Position numbers and translations under genes: made by a program
Notes under the pieces: generated by a model
What the model saw: the letters and a program-made list of their open reading frames with translations, nothing else
Told to the model about the DNA's origin: nothing
The model's database searches: none
Shown here: positions 40,124 to 58,579 of the stretch, in pieces
Layout of the letters: the number at the start of each line of letters is the position of its first letter
Numbering within the stretch: position 1 is the stretch's first letter
Source of the DNA: an uncultured Pelagibacteraceae bacterium
GTDB taxonomy: Bacteria > Pseudomonadota > Alphaproteobacteria > Pelagibacterales > AG-422-B15
Assembly (NCBI GenBank): GCA_902578305.1
Contig: CACHCK010000002.1
Span: 129,907-193,906 of the forward strand
Length of the DNA stretch: 64,000 bases
Direction of reading: 5' to 3'

Positions 40124-41278
40124 TTAGCAATTTTCAAATGAAGATGCCATGTCACCTATTAGATCAAAATAAAGATCTCTTCCTGGCTCCAATTCAGCTC
40201 CTAATGGATCTAAAACGGCAGACTTTATACCAGTATCACTTGCAATTGTTTCTGCAATACTTGGGTTAAATTGAGGCTCTGAAAATAAACAATTAACACT
40301 CTCATGTTCAATTACTTCTCTTATTTCTGCAAGTTGCTTCGCACCAGGCAACACCTCAGGATTTACAGTAAGAGCACCAATTACTTCAATACCAAATCTC
40401 TGCTCAAAATATTGATAGGCATCATGAAACACAATGTATGTTGCATCACTATTTATTTTTGATCTTGTATTGTCTATTAACTGGTCAAGGTCATTAATAG
40501 CATTCGCAGCATTGGATGAATAAATTGATTTATTGGCAGGATCAATTTCAGATAATTCTTCTGAAGCAATACTTACAATTGTTTTTGCTATTTCTGGATC
40601 TAGCCAAAAATGTATATCGTGCTCACCGTGATGGTGACCGTGATCATCATGTCCTTCGTGTTCATCATGATCGTCATGTCCGTCAGCGTGTTCTTCATGA
40701 TCGTCGTGACCTTCGTGTTCGTTGTGTTCGTCATGTTCATCATGTTCGTCATGTTCGTCGTGTTCGTCATGTTCATCATGTTCGTCATGTTCGTCGTGTT
40801 CGTCGTGTTCATCATGTTCATCATGTTCGTCGTGTTCGTCGTGTTCGTCATGATCATCGTGTCCATCAGCATGATCTTCGTGTTCATCATGGTCATCGTG
40901 ATGATCATCAAATACATTTTTTTCTCTAAATTTTAGAAGCTCAATCTGATCAGAATCCATGAGTGTTACCCTTTTTGCACTGGCAGCAATTGAGTCAAGT
41001 GGTGTTTCCAAGAACGACTCTAAGTCTTCTCCGATCCAAAAAACGATATCTGCTTCTTGTAGCATTGTAGCGTGTGAGGGTTTCAATTGGAATGTGTGAG
41101 GAGAAGAACTTCCGTCAACAAGCAGATCAGGACGTCCAACACCATCCATAACATAACTTACAAGTGAATGTATTGGTTTTATTGATGTTACAACTTTTGG
41201 TTCAGCCTCAGCAGAAGAAATAAAGGAGAATAAAGATAGAGATGATAGTAATAGGCCAAATTTATGTTGTAATTTCAT
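40124..41278 (-). CDS. znuA: zinc ABC transporter substrate-binding protein with giant His loop
   Basis: 384 residues from ATG 41278; the longer ORF (41356) would overlap znuC and the Zur box, and 41278 gives a proper signal peptide (MKLQHKFGLLLSSLSLFSF, cleavage near AEAEP). It has VVTSIKPIHSLVSYVMDG, the ligand histidine in SSPHTFQLKPSHATMLQ, HFWLDPEIAK after the loop, and FHDAYQYFEQRF. Between the halves is a loop of about 100 residues made almost only of His, Asp and Glu, far longer than the usual ZnuA loop. Confidence 0.94.
   Translation of the reverse strand: MKLQHKFGLLLSSLSLFSFISSAEAEPKVVTSIKPIHSLVSYVMDGVGRPDLLVDGSSSPHTFQLKPSHATMLQEADIVFWIGEDLESFLETPLDSIAASAKRVTLMDSDQIELLKFREKNVFDDHHDDHDEHEDHADGHDDHDEHDEHDEHDEHDEHDEHDEHDEHDEHDEHDEHDEHDEHDEHNEHEGHDDHEEHADGHDDHDEHEGHDDHGHHHGEHDIHFWLDPEIAKTIVSIASEELSEIDPANKSIYSSNAANAINDLDQLIDNTRSKINSDATYIVFHDAYQYFEQRFGIEVIGALTVNPEVLPGAKQLAEIREVIEHESVNCLFSEPQFNPSIAETIASDTGIKSAVLDPLGAELEPGRDLYFDLIGDMASSFENC
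40616..40911. repeat. tandem 9-bp repeat coding for (Asp-Glu-His)n in znuA
   Basis: About 300 bp of imperfect 9-bp units reading DEH on the minus strand, with roughly a dozen consecutive DEH units flanked by DDH, EGH and ADGHDDH variants. Synonymous changes (GAT/GAC, CAT/CAC) break up the DNA repeat, while the peptide period stays exact. This indicates selection on the peptide; copy number should vary between strains. The open frames in the other five frames here are repeat artefacts. Confidence 0.9.
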
Positions 41279-41311
41279 AGTATAATTGCTTTCATTAATA
41301 ATTGAGTATAG

Positions 41312-41326
41312 TGTTATAATATAACA
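41312..41326. promoter_or_regulatory. Zur box between znuA and znuC
   Basis: The perfect palindrome TGTTAT-AAT-ATAACA lies in the 70-bp divergent gap between znuA (41278) and znuC (41349). It has the same core as the site at 43312-43332 and matches the known shape of alphaproteobacterial Zur sites. It contains TATAAT (41315-41320), a plausible -10 for znuC with TTCATT 18 bp upstream, so Zur bound here would block RNA polymerase for znuCB-zur and probably also for znuA. Confidence 0.82.
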
Positions 41327-41348
41327 AATTTTTAATAGCAAGTTTTTA

Positions 41349-42101
41349 ATGACCAATAATCCAAACGTCCTTGTAAAAATCTCTAACGCAGGGATTCAGA
41401 AGAGCGGCAAATGGCTTGTAAAGGATGTTAATTTAGAAATTCATAGGGGTAAAATAGTTACAATTATTGGTCCCAACGGCTCAGGAAAATCAACAACAGC
41501 AAAAATTGTCCTTGGTCTTCATAAAAAAATTGAGGGAAATGTTCAGACGTTCACTAAAAAGATCTCATATGTCCCCCAGAAAGTATCAATAGATTGGACT
41601 TTACCCATTAGGGTTTTGGATTTTATGGTTTTAACAGAAGATTTAGAACCTCAAGAGATAAATGATGCTTTGAATTTAACTGGTGTTGATCATTTAATAT
41701 CGAGAAATCTCAGAGACTTATCTGGCGGTGAATTCCAAAGGGTACTACTTGCTAGAGCTATTGCAAAAAAGCCTGAACTTTTAGTTTTAGATGAACCAGT
41801 TCAGGGAGTTGATTTTGCAGGTGAAGTAGCTTTGTATGGACTCATTAAAAAGATATCTGAAACATTAAATTGTGGTATTCTTCTGATTTCTCATGATTTA
41901 CATGTAGTTATGTCGGCTACTGATTATGTTGTTTGCCTAAATGGTCATGTTTGCTGTTCGGGTACACCTGTAGATGTGGCACGTGATAAACACTACAAAG
42001 AATTATTTGGTGAAAAATCATCACAATTATTATCAATATACGAACATGACCACGACCATGTACACACTGCTGATGGAGACATAGTAAAAGAAAATGTTTG
42101 A
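41349..42101 (+). CDS. znuC: zinc ABC transporter ATP-binding protein
   Basis: A 250-residue ABC ATPase. Walker A is IIGPNGSGKST, the signature is LSGGEFQRV, Walker B is LLVLDEPVQG, and the H-loop is LLISHDLHVV. The C-terminal tail carries EHDHDHVHTADGD, a His cluster typical of ZnuC proteins. It energises ZnuB import of zinc delivered by ZnuA. It overlaps znuB by 8 bp. Confidence 0.96.
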   Translation: MTNNPNVLVKISNAGIQKSGKWLVKDVNLEIHRGKIVTIIGPNGSGKSTTAKIVLGLHKKIEGNVQTFTKKISYVPQKVSIDWTLPIRVLDFMVLTEDLEPQEINDALNLTGVDHLISRNLRDLSGGEFQRVLLARAIAKKPELLVLDEPVQGVDFAGEVALYGLIKKISETLNCGILLISHDLHVVMSATDYVVCLNGHVCCSGTPVDVARDKHYKELFGEKSSQLLSIYEHDHDHVHTADGDIVKENV

Positions 42102-50025: not shown

Positions 50026-50034
50026 TTTCTATTA

Positions 50035-50073
50035 AGCCCCTATCGCTTAATAGTAAAGCAGGTCATTGGTAAT
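50035..50073 (+). repeat. attL-like 39-bp direct repeat (5' half tRNA)
   Basis: Identical over 39 bp to 58505-58543, with four more matching bases upstream past one mismatch. It covers the acceptor 5' strand, the D-arm and the anticodon loop of the tRNA-Thr-like sequence, and stops just after the anticodon loop, where left and right sequences diverge (TAATG versus GATCA). Break-up within or next to the anticodon arm is a usual crossover place for tyrosine integrases. Confidence 0.85.
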
Positions 50074-50312
50074 TAATGTATTAATGGTATCTGGCTATTT
50101 CCTGAGACTTTTAAAATAATTCATTATGCTGTGCAAACTGCTAAATAACTGAGGTTTTGTCTTACTATTCGATAGAGTGATAATATCTCCTGAATAATTG
50201 AAGTTGTGTCCTATTTGTGTCCTAGAAATTTATTGATCACAAATAAACCTTATTCCAAACAAAATTATGACGAGTTGATTTAATAAACTTTCTTTGACAG
50301 AAAGGAATCAAA
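50074..50312. other. island left-end non-coding region
   Basis: About 240 bp between the left repeat and the first island gene. No open frame is convincing. It holds the left arm-like repeat (50194-50224) and a weak ribosome site (GAAAGGAAT, 50299-50307) for the gene at 50313. Confidence 0.6.
50194..50224 (+). repeat. left arm-like repeat of the island
   Basis: A 31-bp sequence that begins ATAATTGAA and contains two tandem TTGTGTCCTA units one base apart. It matches 58420-58450 at 29 of 31 positions. Both copies lie inside the island, about 120 bp from the left core and 55 bp from the right core, and are in the same orientation. Arm-type sites of tyrosine integrases have this arrangement. 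Function is inferred. Confidence 0.65.
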
Positions 50313-51011
50313 ATGAATCAACATAATTTTATTACACGACGTTCTTACTCAAATGAATCTACAATTCTTATTAATCCAGCAAAAAAAATTCATGAATACA
50401 AAAAAAGAAATCTTAGACTTAAATCAAGCTTAATTTTTATTTTTTTCATCTTTTTCTTACTTTTAAGCTATTCTGCTTTTGCATTGGAAAATCGCTCCTC
50501 TTGGGAATTATGGCATGATGAGGATTACGAATATACCTATATAGATTCGTGGGGCAGCATAAATAAGGCTGACTTGATGACACTGACTATTAATAATAAT
50601 GATTGTGACGCTCTTTCAGTAAACTTTTTTATTAATAGTCATGATCGTGAAAGAGCAAAGGATGGAAAAAAATTTATTCTTGAAATCACTGAAACTCCAC
50701 ACGAGGGTGAAAACTGGCAAGAATATAAAAGTGAAATTTTTATAAATTACTCAGAACTTATTAATGACAGTATTGTTTATGTCCTTGCTTTTGATCATAA
50801 ATTTGAGACCCAATATTGGATTGATCGTTTAGAAGAATTAGGCCCTTTTTATTTTCATTTAAGTATTCACGAAGATGCAAATGAGCAATCAGATCCTAGC
50901 AAATATTTTGAACACACAGATAATCATTGGAACATGGCAACTCTAAAACAAGTTTTAAAAAAAGCTTATCGTAATTGCAGATTGAAAACATTTAATCAAA
51001 CTTCTGTTTAG
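50313..51011 (+). CDS. exported island protein of unknown function with RxSYxxEST leader
   Basis: 232 residues. An unusual cytoplasmic leader (FITRRSYSNESTILINP) is followed by a basic stretch and one strong hydrophobic segment (about 44-64) ending SAFALEN, which could be a signal-peptidase site. The mature part is acidic, with two Cys (NDCDALSV and AYRNCRLK) that might form a disulfide, and looks beta-rich. No family recognised. The leader matches the 59-residue gene at 48056. First gene of the island. Confidence 0.7.
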   Translation: MNQHNFITRRSYSNESTILINPAKKIHEYKKRNLRLKSSLIFIFFIFFLLLSYSAFALENRSSWELWHDEDYEYTYIDSWGSINKADLMTLTINNNDCDALSVNFFINSHDRERAKDGKKFILEITETPHEGENWQEYKSEIFINYSELINDSIVYVLAFDHKFETQYWIDRLEELGPFYFHLSIHEDANEQSDPSKYFEHTDNHWNMATLKQVLKKAYRNCRLKTFNQTSV

Positions 51012-51081
51012 TTTTCAATATGTCTGAATATTTTGAGAAAATAAATATCATTTTACTAAATTGCATCTGATCAACCATAAT

Positions 51082-51651
51082 ATGTCTTCAAAGCCAAAGT
51101 TAAATTTTGTTTTCTACTTTTTTTTTATAGTTTTTATTGGAGCTATTACAACTGAAGCGAGTGAATTTCCTTATTTTTGTGAGATAAAGATAAGTTATTA
51201 TCCTGGTGAAGATGGGCAAGCATATGAAGAATATCATAAAAGTGGTAATTCGGTAAGAGGTAAGACCATGATCTTTCACGGAGAACATCCATCTCACGGT
51301 CCATTTAAGCAGCTTGGAGTAAAACTCTTGGCTGATGTCTGCTATAAAAATGAAAAAACAGGTCAAGTATACGTCGAGGATCCCGAGGATTTATGGATAA
51401 GGAATTCAGATATTAATATTCAAAAGCACAAATATTCACTCACTGACTTTATATTGATATTTCTTGATGATGATAAGACAAATGATGAAAATGATAATTG
51501 TGAAGATAAATGGTGGACTTCATTTGAAGAGGATAAAAGAGTAATTATTAGTGTTGCAGATATTTGGCAAGGAGCGACTGCTCATTATTCTACAACTTAC
51601 GCCATCTCACCAAAGGATATCATGATGAATGGAAAGTGGATTTGCTCTTAA
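51082..51651 (+). CDS. secreted island protein of unknown function
   Basis: 189 residues from ATG 51082; a TTG at 51061 is an alternative. The signal peptide is clear (NFVFYFFFIVFIGAITTEAS). The mature part is acidic, has four Cys (FCEI, DVCYK, NCED, WICS), and contains many Tyr and Trp. It looks like a small periplasmic, disulfide-bonded beta protein. Like the gene before it, it ends in a Cys-containing segment (GKWICS). No family recognised. The gap to the helicase gene is 180 bp, with no gene. Confidence 0.7.
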   Translation: MSSKPKLNFVFYFFFIVFIGAITTEASEFPYFCEIKISYYPGEDGQAYEEYHKSGNSVRGKTMIFHGEHPSHGPFKQLGVKLLADVCYKNEKTGQVYVEDPEDLWIRNSDINIQKHKYSLTDFILIFLDDDKTNDENDNCEDKWWTSFEEDKRVIISVADIWQGATAHYSTTYAISPKDIMMNGKWICS

Positions 51652-51831
51652 TATGGAAGAATTAGATACAGCTTTAAATCTCATATTTTTTTAATGGCAA
51701 TTTTTGATTTAGTTGATGTAACCATCTTCATGATTGAGACATAGCCACGAATAAATGGGAGTAAAATAACAACTGACTCAAATTTGATTTACCTTGCTAT
51801 ATATTTGTCATAAAAATATCATACAAAGGTT

Positions 51832-54800
51832 ATGTCTACAATTATTACATCCAGAAACTACGATCGTGAAGTTCTAAATATAATCAATAACATTATACCG
51901 GGATGCAAGAATATATATATAAGAGTCGGCTATTTTTATTTTTCTGGTTTTTCATTAATTGCTAAAAGCCTTATAAAAAAAAATATTAAGATTTTAGTTG
52001 GAATGGAAGCAGATAAAACTACAAACGATTATCTTAGAAATTTTTCAAATACGGTAGATAAAGATGAAATTTTAGACAAACCCGTTGAAAGAGACGCTTA
52101 TTTCATTTTTAAAAATAAATTAAAAGATGGTACTTTAGAAATTCGCCAAAATATTACGCCGGATCATTCTAAAGTATTCATATTTGAGTATACTGATAAA
52201 AACTCTAAAATTTTTAATGGTCCTGGTCAAACAATGATAGGATCCTCAAATACATCTCACTCAGGATTTATCACAAATACTGAAACAAATGTATTACTAC
52301 CAAGTCCAGAGAATTTTCAGTCATCAAGTTTAGATTTTAGAGATGATTGGGAAAATTCAATCAAACTTTTAGATAAAACGAACTTTAGTGATTTTGAAAA
52401 ATTTTCAAGTAAGTTTCCGTTTGAACAAAAACCTAGTCCTTATTTAATGTTTGTAAGGGTTTTGAATGAATATTTTAAAGATAGAAGTGAAGAAACAATA
52501 AAACTTCCTAAAGATATTACAGAGGATTACTTTGAAAATTTTAAATATCAGCAAGACGCAATTGCCAGGGGTCTTGATATCTTAAATGATCATAATGGTG
52601 TGTTGATAGCTGATGTTGTAGGTTTAGGTAAGAGTATAATAGCATGTGCTATTGCTAATAATTTAGGATTAAGAACAATCGTAATTTGTCCTCCACATTT
52701 AAAAGAACAATGGAAAGATTATTTATACAAATTTAAAGTAAGAGGAGGCAGAGTTTATACCTCAGGAAAAATCTTAGATGCTTTAAGTGAAGATACCCCT
52801 GGCCAAAAATTAATAATTATTGATGAGGTTCACAAGTTTAGAAACGATGAGACCAAAGATTATTTGAATCTCTATCAATTATGCCATGACAGTAATGGTA
52901 AAGGACCAAATAAAGTCATACTATTATCTGCAACTCCTTTTAACAATAAACCCAGTGATACTTTTAGCTTAATAAAATTATTTCAAATACCTAAAAGATC
53001 AACATTGCAAACAATACGAAATCTATCATCGTATTTTGAAAGACTAAACAAAAGCTATAACAGCCTAAAGAGAGAACAATTAAAAAATACTAGGAGTGCT
53101 AAAGAAATAAATGATGATTTCAAAAATATAGGCGAGGAGATTCGAAGTATTATATCTCCTTTGACAATAAGAAGGTCTAGAATTGATCTTGAAAATATAA
53201 AATCATATGACAATGACTTAAAAAAACAGAAAATCTATTTTCCTAAAGTAGAGGATCCTATTTTATTAACATATGATTTAGGTTCTATTGAGGAAATTTA
53301 TAAAGAGACCTTAAAAATCATTTCACCTGATAATACTGAAAGTAATTATAAATGTGCAAGGTATAAACCATTAACTTATGTCAAACCTAATCACTTATAT
53401 GAAGTCTTAGATGCTGGTGGATATAATGATGATGAAAAGAAAAATAAATTACCACAACAACAACAAAATATTCATGATTTTATAAAAAGAATGATGGTTA
53501 GAAGATTCGAAAGTAGTACATTCTCGTTTTCCATAACATTAGACAGAGTTATAAAATCTAACGAAAGAATGATTGAGTATTATGAAAAAAAAGGTGAAGT
53601 GCCCATTTACCCGCGGAATCAAATGCCTGATTTAGAGGAACTTTACGGCAGTGAGGATGATGTTCAAGTAGATGATTATGATATCATTAACGAGACTAAA
53701 CTTCAAAAATTAAAAGATAAGGGCCTTTGGTTCATTAAAAAAGATCAATTGAAAATTGATTATATTAAGGATATTAAAAATGATTTAAATTTACTGCTAT
53801 CAGTTCGTGAGAAATGGGAAATTTTAAAAAATAAAAAGTTTAAAGACCCTAAAACTGAGAAATTTAAAGCAATTATTCAAAATCAATTAAAAAAAGATCC
53901 TAAAAGAAAAATAATAGTTTTTACAGAATTTTCAGATACAGCAAATTATTTATTCAAAACAATTTTTAATGATTTTAAAGCAAGTATTTATACATCGACT
54001 GAGTCCTCAAATAAAAAAAAGAAGACTGAAATAAAAGAAAATTTTGATGCTTCAAGCAAAATTCAAAAAAATGATTATGATATATTGATTGCTACCGATG
54101 CTATATCTGAAGGGTTTAATTTACACAGAGCAGGTACAATATTCAATTACGATATTCCTTATAATCCTACAAGAGTTGTTCAGAGATTTGGACGAATAAA
54201 CAGAATAAACAAAAAGATGTATGATAAATTATATATATATAATTTTTTTCCAACAGATATTGGAGAAACAGAAGTAAATTTAAAAAGAATAACTGGACTT
54301 AAGAAAATGATGTTTAATGCGATATTTGGAGAAGATACAAAAGTATTAACAACTGATGAAACACTTGGAAGTTATTTTCAAAAGGAGTTTGATGAAATCT
54401 ATCGAGAAACAGAATCGCCAGAAACTTATTTTGAAAATATTATCTATGATTTAAGAGACTCAAATCCAGAAATTATTATGGAAGCAAATAATATTTCAAA
54501 AAGGGTTAAAGCAAAAAGAAAAATTCACTCTGATGACGGATTATTGATCTTTTCCAAAAAAGGTGACATACCCAAATTTATCTTTTCAAATAAAAATAAA
54601 CAAACAAGCAATTTAAGTGCAGTAGAGGCTCTTAAAATATTTGAGGCAAAACCAGATGAGAAACATCTAAATTTTGACAGAAAATATGAGTCACTTTACG
54701 AAGAAATTAAATCTCAAATATTTTTTTCTGAAAAGGAAATCTTGCCTCCAAATAAAAAAAGGAAAGACTTAATTAATAAATTAGAATTACTGTCAAAGGA

Positions 54801-55035
54801 GAGCAGATACACTGATTATTATTCAAAATTATATACTGTTGTTAAGGAACTTGATGCTTTAACACCAATGCAACTTAAAACTATAAGAAAAATAACTGCG
54901 AAAACCTGTGATAAAAATATAAAAGATATAATGGAAGTGATACCTGAGAGACTGCTTAAAAATCTATTAAAAACATATCACGAACTTGAGATTAAAAAAG
55001 ATGCTGTAATTATTACTGAACAAATAAATGATTGA
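51832..55035 (+). CDS. PLD-nuclease / SF2 (SNF2-like) helicase fusion
   Basis: 1067 residues. Residues about 1-180 form a phospholipase-D-like nuclease with the HxK motif as DHSKVFIF (H112, K114) and GSSN (137-140). Then an SF2 helicase: GLGKS (264-268), DEVH (331-334), SATPF (366-370), FTEFSDT near 700, ATDAISEGFNLH near 755 and QRFGRINRI near 785. A C-terminal region of about 270 residues is unassigned. PLD plus helicase followed by a methyltransferase gene (8-bp overlap) indicates an ATP-dependent restriction system. Distinct from type I HsdR, which has a PD-(D/E)xK nuclease. Confidence 0.9.
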   Translation: MSTIITSRNYDREVLNIINNIIPGCKNIYIRVGYFYFSGFSLIAKSLIKKNIKILVGMEADKTTNDYLRNFSNTVDKDEILDKPVERDAYFIFKNKLKDGTLEIRQNITPDHSKVFIFEYTDKNSKIFNGPGQTMIGSSNTSHSGFITNTETNVLLPSPENFQSSSLDFRDDWENSIKLLDKTNFSDFEKFSSKFPFEQKPSPYLMFVRVLNEYFKDRSEETIKLPKDITEDYFENFKYQQDAIARGLDILNDHNGVLIADVVGLGKSIIACAIANNLGLRTIVICPPHLKEQWKDYLYKFKVRGGRVYTSGKILDALSEDTPGQKLIIIDEVHKFRNDETKDYLNLYQLCHDSNGKGPNKVILLSATPFNNKPSDTFSLIKLFQIPKRSTLQTIRNLSSYFERLNKSYNSLKREQLKNTRSAKEINDDFKNIGEEIRSIISPLTIRRSRIDLENIKSYDNDLKKQKIYFPKVEDPILLTYDLGSIEEIYKETLKIISPDNTESNYKCARYKPLTYVKPNHLYEVLDAGGYNDDEKKNKLPQQQQNIHDFIKRMMVRRFESSTFSFSITLDRVIKSNERMIEYYEKKGEVPIYPRNQMPDLEELYGSEDDVQVDDYDIINETKLQKLKDKGLWFIKKDQLKIDYIKDIKNDLNLLLSVREKWEILKNKKFKDPKTEKFKAIIQNQLKKDPKRKIIVFTEFSDTANYLFKTIFNDFKASIYTSTESSNKKKKTEIKENFDASSKIQKNDYDILIATDAISEGFNLHRAGTIFNYDIPYNPTRVVQRFGRINRINKKMYDKLYIYNFFPTDIGETEVNLKRITGLKKMMFNAIFGEDTKVLTTDETLGSYFQKEFDEIYRETESPETYFENIIYDLRDSNPEIIMEANNISKRVKAKRKIHSDDGLLIFSKKGDIPKFIFSNKNKQTSNLSAVEALKIFEAKPDEKHLNFDRKYESLYEEIKSQIFFSEKEILPPNKKRKDLINKLELLSKESRYTDYYSKLYTVVKELDALTPMQLKTIRKITAKTCDKNIKDIMEVIPERLLKNLLKTYHELEIKKDAVIITEQIND

Positions 55036-58000
55036 TTTTAATGAAAACTATCAAAGAGAAAATTTTCAATATTTCTTAAAAGAGTTTTTACCAAAAGATT
55101 ATATACAAACTGAAAATGAACTTAAAATTGATAAGAATAATAAATATTTTTGTAAAGCTACTTTATTAGGTAGAGTTAAATCACTAGATGATTTAATTAT
55201 AATTGAAGTAAAACGAATTAAGTCAGAAAAAAGTCGTATTGTTATTACGAAGCAATTATTTAAATTGTTAGAGCTCTACGGATACTCAAAATCATTAATA
55301 ATTACTCACTCAGATAAAGAAAATCATTACAGGTTTTCTCTAATTACAAGTGAATTGAAGTGGACCTCGGAAAGTAAGGTAAAAAAAATATTTTCAAATC
55401 CTAAAAGATTATCTTTTCTACTTGGCGAAAATTCTAGAATTCATACTGCAACTAGTAATCTTATTAAAAAGGGTAGAGTAAGGGATTTCTCTGACTTATT
55501 TCAACGATTTGATATTGAACTTGTAAATGATGAATTTTATGAAAAATACAAAAATTTATTTTTTGATTTAACTAAAAAATTAGAAAAAGATAAGGAGTTT
55601 AGCACTTTCGCAAATGAAATTAACTTAGAAATTAAGCATTTTGCTAAGAAACTACTAGGTCAGATAATTTTTTGTTATTTTCTACAGAAGAAAGGTTGGC
55701 TTGGAATAAAAAAAAATAAACAGTTTGGAAGTGGAGACTTATCATTCTTAAGAAATCAATTTGAAAAATTGGGTAACGATAAAAATTTTTTTAATGAATT
55801 TTTGGAATATTTTTTTTATGAAGGATTAAACAAACAAAATAATGATAATTATGTGCATAGTATTGGGTGCAGAGTTCCATATATTGGTGGAGGATTGTTT
55901 GAATATCATGAAGGCTACGATTGGAGAAAAGAGGATTTAAACATACCTAACTCAACATTTTCTAACCCTGAAAAGAGCGGAATTCTTGATGTATTTGATC
56001 TTTACAATTTCACTGTGGATGAAAATGAAACGGTTGATGTAGAGATTTCAATCGACCCTGAAATGCTTGGCAGAATTTTTGAGAGCCTATTGGATGAAAA
56101 TCTCAGATTAAAGCGAGGGGCATTTTACACACCGAGAACAATAGTAAAGGAAATGTGTGAAGAAAGCCTTATTAATCACTTGTCCTTAAAATTGAAAAAT
56201 GATCTTAAGTATAATGATGTATTTAATTTTATTAAACACAGCGAAATAAGTGGAGTTGATAATAAAATAATAAAAAATGCTAAACTAGTTGATGATACCT
56301 TAGAGAAAATAAAAATATGTGATCCAGCAATTGGTTCAGGTGCTTTCGCCGTTGGATTTGTTAATTTAATCTCAAAGTTGCGTAACACCATAAAAAATTA
56401 TATTGAAAGAAAATATAAAAATAGTGTTTACCATTTTAAAAGAGAATGTATTCAAAATGCTATTTATGGAGTTGATATTGACTCATCTGCAGTTGAAATA
56501 GCAAAATTAAGATTATGGCTTTCATTAATTGTTGATGATGCAGACTATTCATCTACCGAGCCCTTACCATATTTAGATTATAAAATAATGCAAGGCGACT
56601 CATTGATTGATGAATTTTACGGATATAAGTTCAGTATCAATAAGAATGAAAAAAAACAATATAGTTTGGATGAGAATCCTCGAGAAATTGAGGATTTAGT
56701 CAATAAATTAAATAATGTTCAAAAAGAATATATGAACTTAAAACAATTTACTAAAAGATCTGAGGCAAAACAAAAAATTAACAAAATATTATTAGAGATA
56801 TTTAAAACTATTACCTCTCATGTCCCAATCTTAGATACAAATACTAAACATAAATCTGATAACCTTACAAAAAATGATTATGTTTTGGGGCACAACAGAG
56901 ATTTTTTTTGCTGGGAATTATTTTTTGCTGACGTCTTTTATGTTAGGAAGGGATTTGATATAATTATAGCTAATCCACCTTATGAAGTTTTAGACTCAAA
57001 TGAGGTTTCATCATCTCGTATAGCGCAACTTAGAAAAAATCATATTTTTAATCCAGCTAAAGAAGGGCAATTAAATTATTTCAAACTTTTTTTAGCAAAG
57101 TTCCTGACGCATTTAAATGATAATGGAGTTTCAGCATTTATCTTTCAGAATTCTTTTCTAGGGGATAAAACATGTACCAAAATAAGGAAGTTTGTTTTTG
57201 ATGATAATAGGTTATTAAGTTTAAGTTCTTTTCCCGAGAGGGATGATGCAAATAAGAGAGTATTTAAGTCAGCTAAAATGTCAGTTTGCATTGCACATAC
57301 ATCTAAAATGATAGAGAGCGATTATAAATTTAGACTAGAAGTATGGAAAGATAGAAATAAAGATGAAGGATTTAAGACCAGTTTTGATAAGGTATTTATT
57401 AAAAAGGATCCTTATTACAGAATTCCATCTATAGATAAATTTGGATTAAGCATATATTTTAAAATGCTTCAGAATTCAAATGTTTTAAAATTAAGTGATA
57501 TTGCAAAGGTTTATTCTGGTGAATTAGATATGACAATTCACAAAAAATTTTTTTGTGAAAAGAAAGATAATGTATTTTCATCTACTATTCTTAAAGGTGC
57601 GAATATACAAAGATATTTTGTCACCAAAGAAACCTCACAAGGTAAACAGGAATTTCTTAATAAAGAAGCTTTTCTCAGGGTGAATAAATCAGCTAGGTCA
57701 AGTTCATACTCTGAGGAACGTATAGCAATGCAGGGTATTACAGGAGTGAATGAAAAGTACAGAATTAAATCCTGCTTAGTAGGGAAAAATTATTTTTTAG
57801 CGAATAGCACAAACTTTTTAATAAAGTTAAATCCTAGTTTTTCTAATCAAGAACTAATAACTTATTTGAACTCTAAATTAATAAATTGGTTTTTTCGAAT
57901 ATTTAGTACAAATTCAAATGTTAATACTTATGAAATAAATATATTACCGCTTATTATTTTCTCGAAAGAGAATAAAAAGAAAATTTCTGATGAGTTTGAG

Positions 58001-58111
58001 AAATTAATTGGTAATTATGATGAAAGTTCTGACTATAATCTAAATAATATAATTTATGAAACTTTTGGTTTAAATAATCAGGAAATAAAATACATTGACT
58101 CTTTCTTTTAA
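55028..58111 (+). CDS. Eco57I-like adenine-specific DNA methyltransferase
   Basis: 1027 residues. KRGAFYTPRTIVKEMCEESL introduces the catalytic core; SAM motif I is DPAIGSGAFAVGF (from about 432); the catalytic motif IV is NPPYEVLD (about 649), for N6-adenine. The last 230 residues (LKLSDIAKVYSGE to STNSNVNTYEINILP) resemble a TaqI-type target-recognition domain. The N-terminus has IIIEVKR near residue 60, reminiscent of a PD-(D/E)xK core, but a full motif is not evident. It is translationally coupled to the PLD-helicase gene and presumably modifies self DNA. Confidence 0.9.
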   Translation: MIDFNENYQRENFQYFLKEFLPKDYIQTENELKIDKNNKYFCKATLLGRVKSLDDLIIIEVKRIKSEKSRIVITKQLFKLLELYGYSKSLIITHSDKENHYRFSLITSELKWTSESKVKKIFSNPKRLSFLLGENSRIHTATSNLIKKGRVRDFSDLFQRFDIELVNDEFYEKYKNLFFDLTKKLEKDKEFSTFANEINLEIKHFAKKLLGQIIFCYFLQKKGWLGIKKNKQFGSGDLSFLRNQFEKLGNDKNFFNEFLEYFFYEGLNKQNNDNYVHSIGCRVPYIGGGLFEYHEGYDWRKEDLNIPNSTFSNPEKSGILDVFDLYNFTVDENETVDVEISIDPEMLGRIFESLLDENLRLKRGAFYTPRTIVKEMCEESLINHLSLKLKNDLKYNDVFNFIKHSEISGVDNKIIKNAKLVDDTLEKIKICDPAIGSGAFAVGFVNLISKLRNTIKNYIERKYKNSVYHFKRECIQNAIYGVDIDSSAVEIAKLRLWLSLIVDDADYSSTEPLPYLDYKIMQGDSLIDEFYGYKFSINKNEKKQYSLDENPREIEDLVNKLNNVQKEYMNLKQFTKRSEAKQKINKILLEIFKTITSHVPILDTNTKHKSDNLTKNDYVLGHNRDFFCWELFFADVFYVRKGFDIIIANPPYEVLDSNEVSSSRIAQLRKNHIFNPAKEGQLNYFKLFLAKFLTHLNDNGVSAFIFQNSFLGDKTCTKIRKFVFDDNRLLSLSSFPERDDANKRVFKSAKMSVCIAHTSKMIESDYKFRLEVWKDRNKDEGFKTSFDKVFIKKDPYYRIPSIDKFGLSIYFKMLQNSNVLKLSDIAKVYSGELDMTIHKKFFCEKKDNVFSSTILKGANIQRYFVTKETSQGKQEFLNKEAFLRVNKSARSSSYSEERIAMQGITGVNEKYRIKSCLVGKNYFLANSTNFLIKLNPSFSNQELITYLNSKLINWFFRIFSTNSNVNTYEINILPLIIFSKENKKKISDEFEKLIGNYDESSDYNLNNIIYETFGLNNQEIKYIDSFF

Positions 58112-58505
58112 CAAGAGACTTTGATCCATCAGGCATGAAAGTTCCAAAAACTACTTTCAAATACTTGCATGTTATATCTTCAAAAACTCTCATTTGGTAA
58201 ACTAGTTTTTTTTGAAACTTATCACACAGGAGGTTTTGAACATCCTACTCCATCAATCTATAACAAGCGGGCAACTGTACATATAAGGGGGGTTTGTAAT
58301 TAATTGATTCATAATTTAACTCTGTATGAAACAAAATGATTTTATTCATTCAACAGATTTTATGTAAATGTATTAGTACAAATAAAACAGATAGTTAAAG
58401 TACAGACAATGTCCCGTGGATAATTGAATTTGTGTCCTATATGTGTCCTACAATAATTTTACAAATTTAGGTTTGTAAGTTATTGATAAGACTCATAAAT
58501 ATTTA
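58112..58505. other. island right-end non-coding region
   Basis: About 390 bp with no gene I can support. It contains a 43-codon open frame ending at 58298-58300 that shows no family resemblance, the right arm-like repeat (58420-58450), and the start of the right core. No relic of an integrase is visible in any frame. Confidence 0.6.
58420..58450 (+). repeat. right arm-like repeat of the island
   Basis: Matches the left copy (50194-50224) at 29 of 31 bases, with tandem TGTGTCCTA units. A third TGTCC lies a little upstream (AATGTCCCGTGG, 58409-58420). It lies 55 bp inside the right core repeat. Confidence 0.65.
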
Positions 58506-58543
58506 GCCCCTATCGCTTAATAGTAAAGCAGGTCATTGGTAAT
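58505..58543 (+). repeat. attR-like 39-bp direct repeat
   Basis: Right copy of the island core, continuous here with the 3' half of the tRNA-like cloverleaf. The intact tRNA-like gene therefore has its 5' half from the island junction and its 3' half from the chromosome side. Confidence 0.85.
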
Positions 58544-58579
58544 GATCAGCCGCTGGAGCGTAACCAGCTAGGGGCACCA
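58506..58579 (+). tRNA. aberrant tRNA-Thr (GGT)-like cloverleaf
   Basis: 74 nt that fold completely: acceptor GCCCCTA/TAGGGGC (7 bp), D-stem GCTT/AAGC, anticodon stem GGTCA/TGATC with loop TTGGTAA (anticodon GGT), T-stem GCTGG/CCAGC, then A73 and encoded CCA. The D-loop AATAGTA lacks the G18-G19 pair and the T-loop AGCGTAA is not TTCRANN, so the normal elbow cannot form. It may be a decayed tRNA kept as an attachment site, or a specialised tRNA. The M50-gene stop codon on the other strand begins at the next base (58580). Confidence 0.55.

Follow-up and report, generated by a model that had tools for sequence, protein, structure and literature searches.

Several kinds of mobile or formerly mobile islands lack the enzyme that inserts them. 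Cis-mobilizable elements (CIMEs) are described as decay products of ICEs or IMEs that are moved by accretion with a neighbour (PMC5704250). In the family of ssrA islands of Dehalococcoides, integrase-less members occur that contain no integration module (PMC3146451). MITEs and CALINs keep only their recombination sites, the enzyme being provided from elsewhere (PMC11389934). Other small elements bring their own enzyme: excision of the known satellites requires satellite-encoded integrases (PMC10803314), and tycheposons carry a tyrosine recombinase (PMC10872708).

The locus described here is an 8.5 kb island in a 64 kb window (the whole stretch analysed, contig C2:129907-193906) of genome G000, which comprises 1.24 Mb in 34 contigs and is 94.6% complete. 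Among the named kinds, the CIME comes nearest: the island likewise keeps attL and attR at a site-specific integration site without integrase or transfer genes (PMC5704250), and as in the Dehalococcoides ssrA islands, members of an island family are found without the enzyme (PMC3146451). Unlike for CIMEs, neither a conjugative parent nor a neighbouring integrase is seen, and matched arm classes mark several types of cargo; the one autonomous relative detected, in genome G007, is satellite-like. With P4-like and PICMI-like satellites the island shares a tRNA-type attachment site, small size and putative defence cargo (PMC10803314); it differs from phage satellites (PICI, PICMI, P4-like) in having no integrase, regulator or replication gene of its own, these being present in the G007 element only. 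Tycheposons and VEIMEs of marine bacteria (named in PMC11389934, PMC10872708) are also tRNA-bounded cargo islands of streamlined plankton, but no tyrosine recombinase of the tycheposon kind is present here, although the island is bounded by the tRNA-Thr gene at 58506-58579.

Boundaries of the island and its target tRNA

The island spans positions 50035 to 58504 and is bordered by a 44-bp direct repeat (50030-50073 and 58500-58543, 43/44 identical). An earlier note on this DNA had claimed perfect 39-bp direct repeats flanking 8.5 kb and a tRNA-Thr-like gene as the site. The repeat indeed includes an identical 39-bp core (50035-50073 and 58505-58543), and its right copy lies in a gene with GGT anticodon that is recognized by Rfam (58506-58576, 50.9 bits) and missed by ARAGORN. 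The boundary features are:

50035-50073, plus strand: attL core, a 39-bp copy of the tRNA-Thr(GGT) 5' half without the 3' half; perfect direct repeat of 58505-58543
50074-50228, plus strand: attL inner (arm-side) region, matching sister genomes G013 and G032 at 91.0-92.3% and G016 at 69% despite unrelated cargo
58375-58504, plus strand: attR inner (arm-side) region, matching G013 and G032 at 87.6% and G016 at 67%
58505-58543, plus strand: attR core, tRNA 5' half; perfect direct repeat of 50035-50073
58506-58579, plus strand: tRNA-Thr(GGT) gene with noncanonical T-loop, the integration target; Rfam tRNA match of 50.9 bits and compensatory stem changes across the genus

Since the left copy consists of the 5' half only and is not detected by Rfam, the repeats do not represent two independent tRNA genes, and this possibility was ruled out; the attL half-copy is also present in G013, G032 and G016. 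A chance repeat was likewise ruled out by a whole-genome arm search and a shuffle test on the window (see below). The target is the sole GGT tRNA-Thr among the 30 tRNAs detected in the host genome, and genus-wide comparison revealed compensatory changes in its acceptor, anticodon and T stems. Its T-loop (AGCGTAA) and D-loop (AATAGTA) are both noncanonical and identical in 27 genomes; a tRNA that is under selection yet without the TTC consensus is odd.

Arm sites and IHF site

Each island end bears a tandem arm, TTGTGTCCTANNTGTGTCCTA, both in the same orientation. The repeat extends over 49 nt at 84%, and within it ATAATTGAA.TTGTGTCCTAT.TGTGTCCTA matches at 29/31 positions. The 31-bp arm-like repeat of the earlier note is thus present at both ends at the identity given there; its supposed place inside the core has to be corrected, as the arms belong to the interior of the element, the left one 130 bp and the right one 54 bp away from its core. 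Allowing up to three mismatches, the tandem motif TGTGTCCTANWTGTGTCCTA occurs exactly twice in the 64 kb (0.03 expected; two occurrences reached in 0/100 shuffles), and with up to two mismatches the two island copies are the only arm matches in the whole host genome. The sites are:

50204-50224, plus strand: left arm site, TTGTGTCCTATTTGTGTCCTA, from motif searches; 130 bp inside the left core
58430-58450, plus strand: right arm site, TTGTGTCCTATATGTGTCCTA, from motif searches; 54 bp inside the right core
58476-58488, minus strand: IHF-consensus site (TAAGTTATTGATA on the plus strand) between right arm and core; perfect consensus

At the matching place in attR, the IHF-consensus site is found in G000, G013, G032, G016, G009 and G005, at a background of 0.23 per kb, and the host genome encodes three proteins of the HU/IHF family. 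Core, arms and IHF site are arranged as in attL/attR pairs of the lambda/P4 type.

Three arm classes were distinguished. Each of them is also located beside integrase genes or tRNAs on DNA that is otherwise unrelated, and for this reason the tandem repeats at the island ends are read as predicted arm sites. TGGTGTAAA arms are found in L155, where tRNA-Thr(GGT), the arms and the integrase all lie within 1.3 kb, and in L150, L151 and L154, TGCTACATA arms in L148, and TGTGTCC arms in L103 (after an integrase C-terminus and before tRNA-Met), L112 (tRNA-Pro), L114 and L164, most of the integrase calls having been made by inspection of C-terminal sequence and not by family search. On a Prochlorococcus contig (L114:6702-7894), two tRNA-Pro(TGG) genes lie ~1.1 kb apart, one of them adjoined by the same TGTGTCCTA arm pair.

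Genes carried by the island

Four genes were annotated between the attachment sites:

50313-51011, plus strand: exp1, predicted exported or membrane-anchored protein, 232 aa (ORF); homologue in the G016 island at 51%
51085-51651, plus strand: exp2, predicted exported protein (ORF); homologues at 57-75% in six genomes of the genus
51832-55035, plus strand: PLD + SNF2-type helicase, DrmD-like, 1067 aa; Pfam Helicase_C, SNF2-rel_dom and PLDc_2, PADLOC DrmD and HKD+Snf2
55028-58111, plus strand: Eco57I-family adenine methyltransferase, type IIG-like, 1027 aa; Pfam Eco57I and TaqI_C, PADLOC REase_MTase_IIG at 331.6 bits

The start of the methyltransferase gene overlaps the stop of the helicase gene, and the pair is a probable, putative defence cargo. 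Membership in DISARM, which needs the core drmA, drmB and drmC plus drmD or drmMI, was rejected; the cargo offers only a DrmD-like helicase and a methyltransferase that is nearer to type IIG than to DrmMI according to PADLOC. The earlier proposal of a defence module and two exported proteins is therefore retained in a qualified form: the pair is consistent with defence, and exp1 (no match in Pfam or PHROG) and exp2 are predicted to be exported, but they are genus-specific accessory genes that are also found at another chromosomal locus. In several sister genomes the exp1/exp2 pair (51085-51651; L176:9549-10825) is located near rpe and acs-like genes, and in G040 it adjoins an apparent type I restriction cluster. 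No packaging or phage-interference signal typical of phage satellites was found in the island. Outside it, the product of 40124-41356 is a zinc-binding transport protein that looks ZnuA-like on inspection and contains a long tract of His-Asp-Glu repeats.

Occupancy of the same site in sister genomes

The empty site expected by the earlier note exists in eight sister genomes (G017, G011, G027, G039, G031, G002, G025 and G041), where the flanks are contiguous in the order ABC-permease gene, tRNA, HlyD-type gene; the upstream sequence of G023 and G036 resembles this arrangement. Further copies of core and arms, also anticipated, were found at the ends of other islands. G013 and G032 harbor integrase-less islands of 3.6 kb and 2.7 kb, respectively, with core, arms and IHF site as in the window and with cargo (T5orf172 and DUF4116) unrelated to that of the window. 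The G000 and G013 islands share essentially no sequence beyond their ends, which match at 91.7% across 206 bp and at 86.7% across 211 bp. The outcomes named beforehand as speaking against an attachment system were an empty site lacking from every relative, absence of further copies of core and arm, and repeats that belong to two separate tRNA genes; all were tested, and none occurred.

The 9.5 kb integrase-less island of G016 contains exp1/exp2 homologues and has a TGCTACATA-class arm at both ends; its remaining genes (CHAT-like, helicase, sigma-factor-like) were named by eye from the sequence. A TGTGTCC-class attR end lies directly upstream of its attL core, so the insertion of this island took place in the attR remnant of an earlier element. 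At attR, G009 spells the arm in a third way, and the contig of this genome breaks off within the island. The same island junction has different left neighbours in different genomes. At the same tRNA, urease operons are found in G024 and G038 between decayed att ends with a TGCTACAT-type arm (L060:3211-8455 and L049:5029-10408, tRNA forward, from the ABC-permease side to the tRNA), and G003 has the same attR end. These urease islands may be metabolic cargo that arrived by the same route.

An autonomous relative and the search for a helper integrase

The absence of a recombinase from the unit, as stated in the earlier note, was borne out: neither the ORFs between the repeats nor Pfam searches of the island yielded an integrase (the latter no transfer genes either), and a six-frame search of the host genome with stops read through detected XerC and XerD and no other recombinase. 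Non-Xer integrases are nearly absent among 43 genomes, some of them 99-100% complete, and G007 holds the only intact phage-type tyrosine integrase found in this set. A short, different integrase-like gene was observed near tRNA-Gly in G030 (L101).

The G007 enzyme, a tyrosine-type integrase with an Arm-DNA-bind_3 domain, is encoded on a 9 kb element (L100:8130-17306) that also codes for a TOTE-type primase/DUF5906 protein and gives a weak AlpA-like match. The ends of this element bear arms of a third sequence, as the pairs TGGTGTAAATATGGTGTAAA and TGGTGTAAATGTGGTGTAAA, with the architecture known from the window and with arm-to-crossover distances (in arm orientation) of ~130 bp on the left and ~65 bp on the right, compared with ~133 and ~87 bp in the window. 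Its integrase gene starts just inside the left arm, the position of exp1 in the window. The element splits tRNA-Thr(GGT) at the anticodon loop without visible restoration of the gene, which suggests that this tRNA is dispensable in G007 or that the assembly is mixed. An integrase beside other copies of the arm, as the earlier note had envisaged, is accordingly found in part: an arm-domain integrase adjoins arms of the same type, but their sequence is different. Together, core, arms, tRNA target, empty sites and the G007 enzyme uphold the view of a tyrosine-recombinase attachment system.

No integrase with TGTGTCC arms was detected in 397 genomes of the order, and the TGTGTCC-type arm pattern is on no other contig of the family. 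Searches of IMG/VR and phage records with the core, attL or attR sequence yielded no helper. Low-E att matches in enterobacterial phages were AT-rich 50-bp matches and judged to be chance, as was L044, the sole viral arm match of the first search; a relaxed arm search of viral contigs gave matches of 53-66% GC, one of them (L164) at an integrase end, and no AT-rich marine helper candidate. Relatives of the G007 integrase were not confirmed in IMG/VR, nor found elsewhere at E <= 1e-15 in the 397 genomes.

Mobility of the islands

The islands are regarded as site-specifically integrated, integrase-less elements whose movement probably depends on an integrase that acts in trans and comes from an unsequenced phage or satellite, a reading given a probability of roughly 0.6. 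Site-specific insertion is evident from the sequence comparison, and action in trans would be the favoured reading. A lambda/P4-type tyrosine integrase would have inserted the island at tRNA-Thr(GGT), the island supplying its own copy of the tRNA 5' half so that the tRNA gene stays intact. The ends would represent attL and attR, with a tandem arm-binding site on each and the IHF site in attR. An arm-domain integrase from an infecting phage, or from a G007-like satellite, would bind these arms in trans, excise the island and re-integrate it, and the island would spread in this way with its probable helicase/methyltransferase defence pair aboard.

An unlikely alternative is an immobile CIME: the island would have brought an integrase gene of its own, have shed it cleanly and by now be fixed, its intact arms reflecting recency only. 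This nevertheless agrees with the lack of a helper in the searches made, with the decayed att ends around the urease operons of G024 and G038, which indicate that islands at this site do become fixed, and with the G007 integrase occupying exactly the position of exp1. Repeated clean loss would, however, be needed for four islands without integrase or detectable remnant. Moreover, the sites are conserved above the rest of the att regions: between G000 and G013, arms and IHF site show 0 changes in 49 positions versus 47 in 277 elsewhere (p = 2.5e-4), and p falls to 8e-7 when the attL core copy, which is without known host function, is added, both values assuming independent positions. Because the ends of the G013 and G032 islands (98.7% and 96.9%) are more alike than their flanks (92.1% left, 95.6% right), and the right flank of G032 is 99.0% like that of the empty-site genome G039, the comparison points to recent movement of these two islands. 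For the island of the window, similarity to G013 is not greater at the ends than in the host flanks, so recent movement is best seen in G013 and G032.

Homologous recombination via the conserved flanks, after a single ancient site-specific insertion and with arms that have no present role, would equally carry islands between lineages, and the trees of left-side and right-side flanks do disagree. It is nonetheless improbable, given that islands with unrelated cargo have the att ends alone in common, that G016 shows a separate event, in which an island of a different arm class entered an attR already in place, and that the same junction is flanked by different left neighbours. The 34 contigs and 94.6% completeness of the assembly leave room for an integrase encoded by the host genome on missing DNA; the near absence of non-Xer integrases even from genomes that are 99-100% complete, and of the arm pattern from every other contig of the family, makes this very improbable.

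Implications for streamlined ocean bacteria

Compared with the known kinds, the novelty lies in islands with unrelated cargo and matched arm classes but no integrase, in a genus that is almost integrase-free (one intact phage-type integrase in 43 genomes). Movement in trans, if true, would make them a tyrosine-integrase counterpart of MITEs and CALINs; those depend on transposases or integron integrases, whereas the enzyme used here would be an arm-domain integrase of the phage type. More tentatively, such islands could form a class of att-only hitchhikers: retaining their matched sites (arm, IHF and core) but encoding no integrase, they would borrow an arm-specific one from incoming phages or satellites, with different arm classes following different helpers and all competing for one tRNA-Thr gene. 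Each matched arm class predicts one specific helper integrase, which renders the idea testable. One tRNA of this genus is the site of swap-in islands holding accessory genes, among them defence genes and urease, and islands that keep the recombination sites alone would, if the reading is true, explain how cargo is exchanged without mobility genes being carried.
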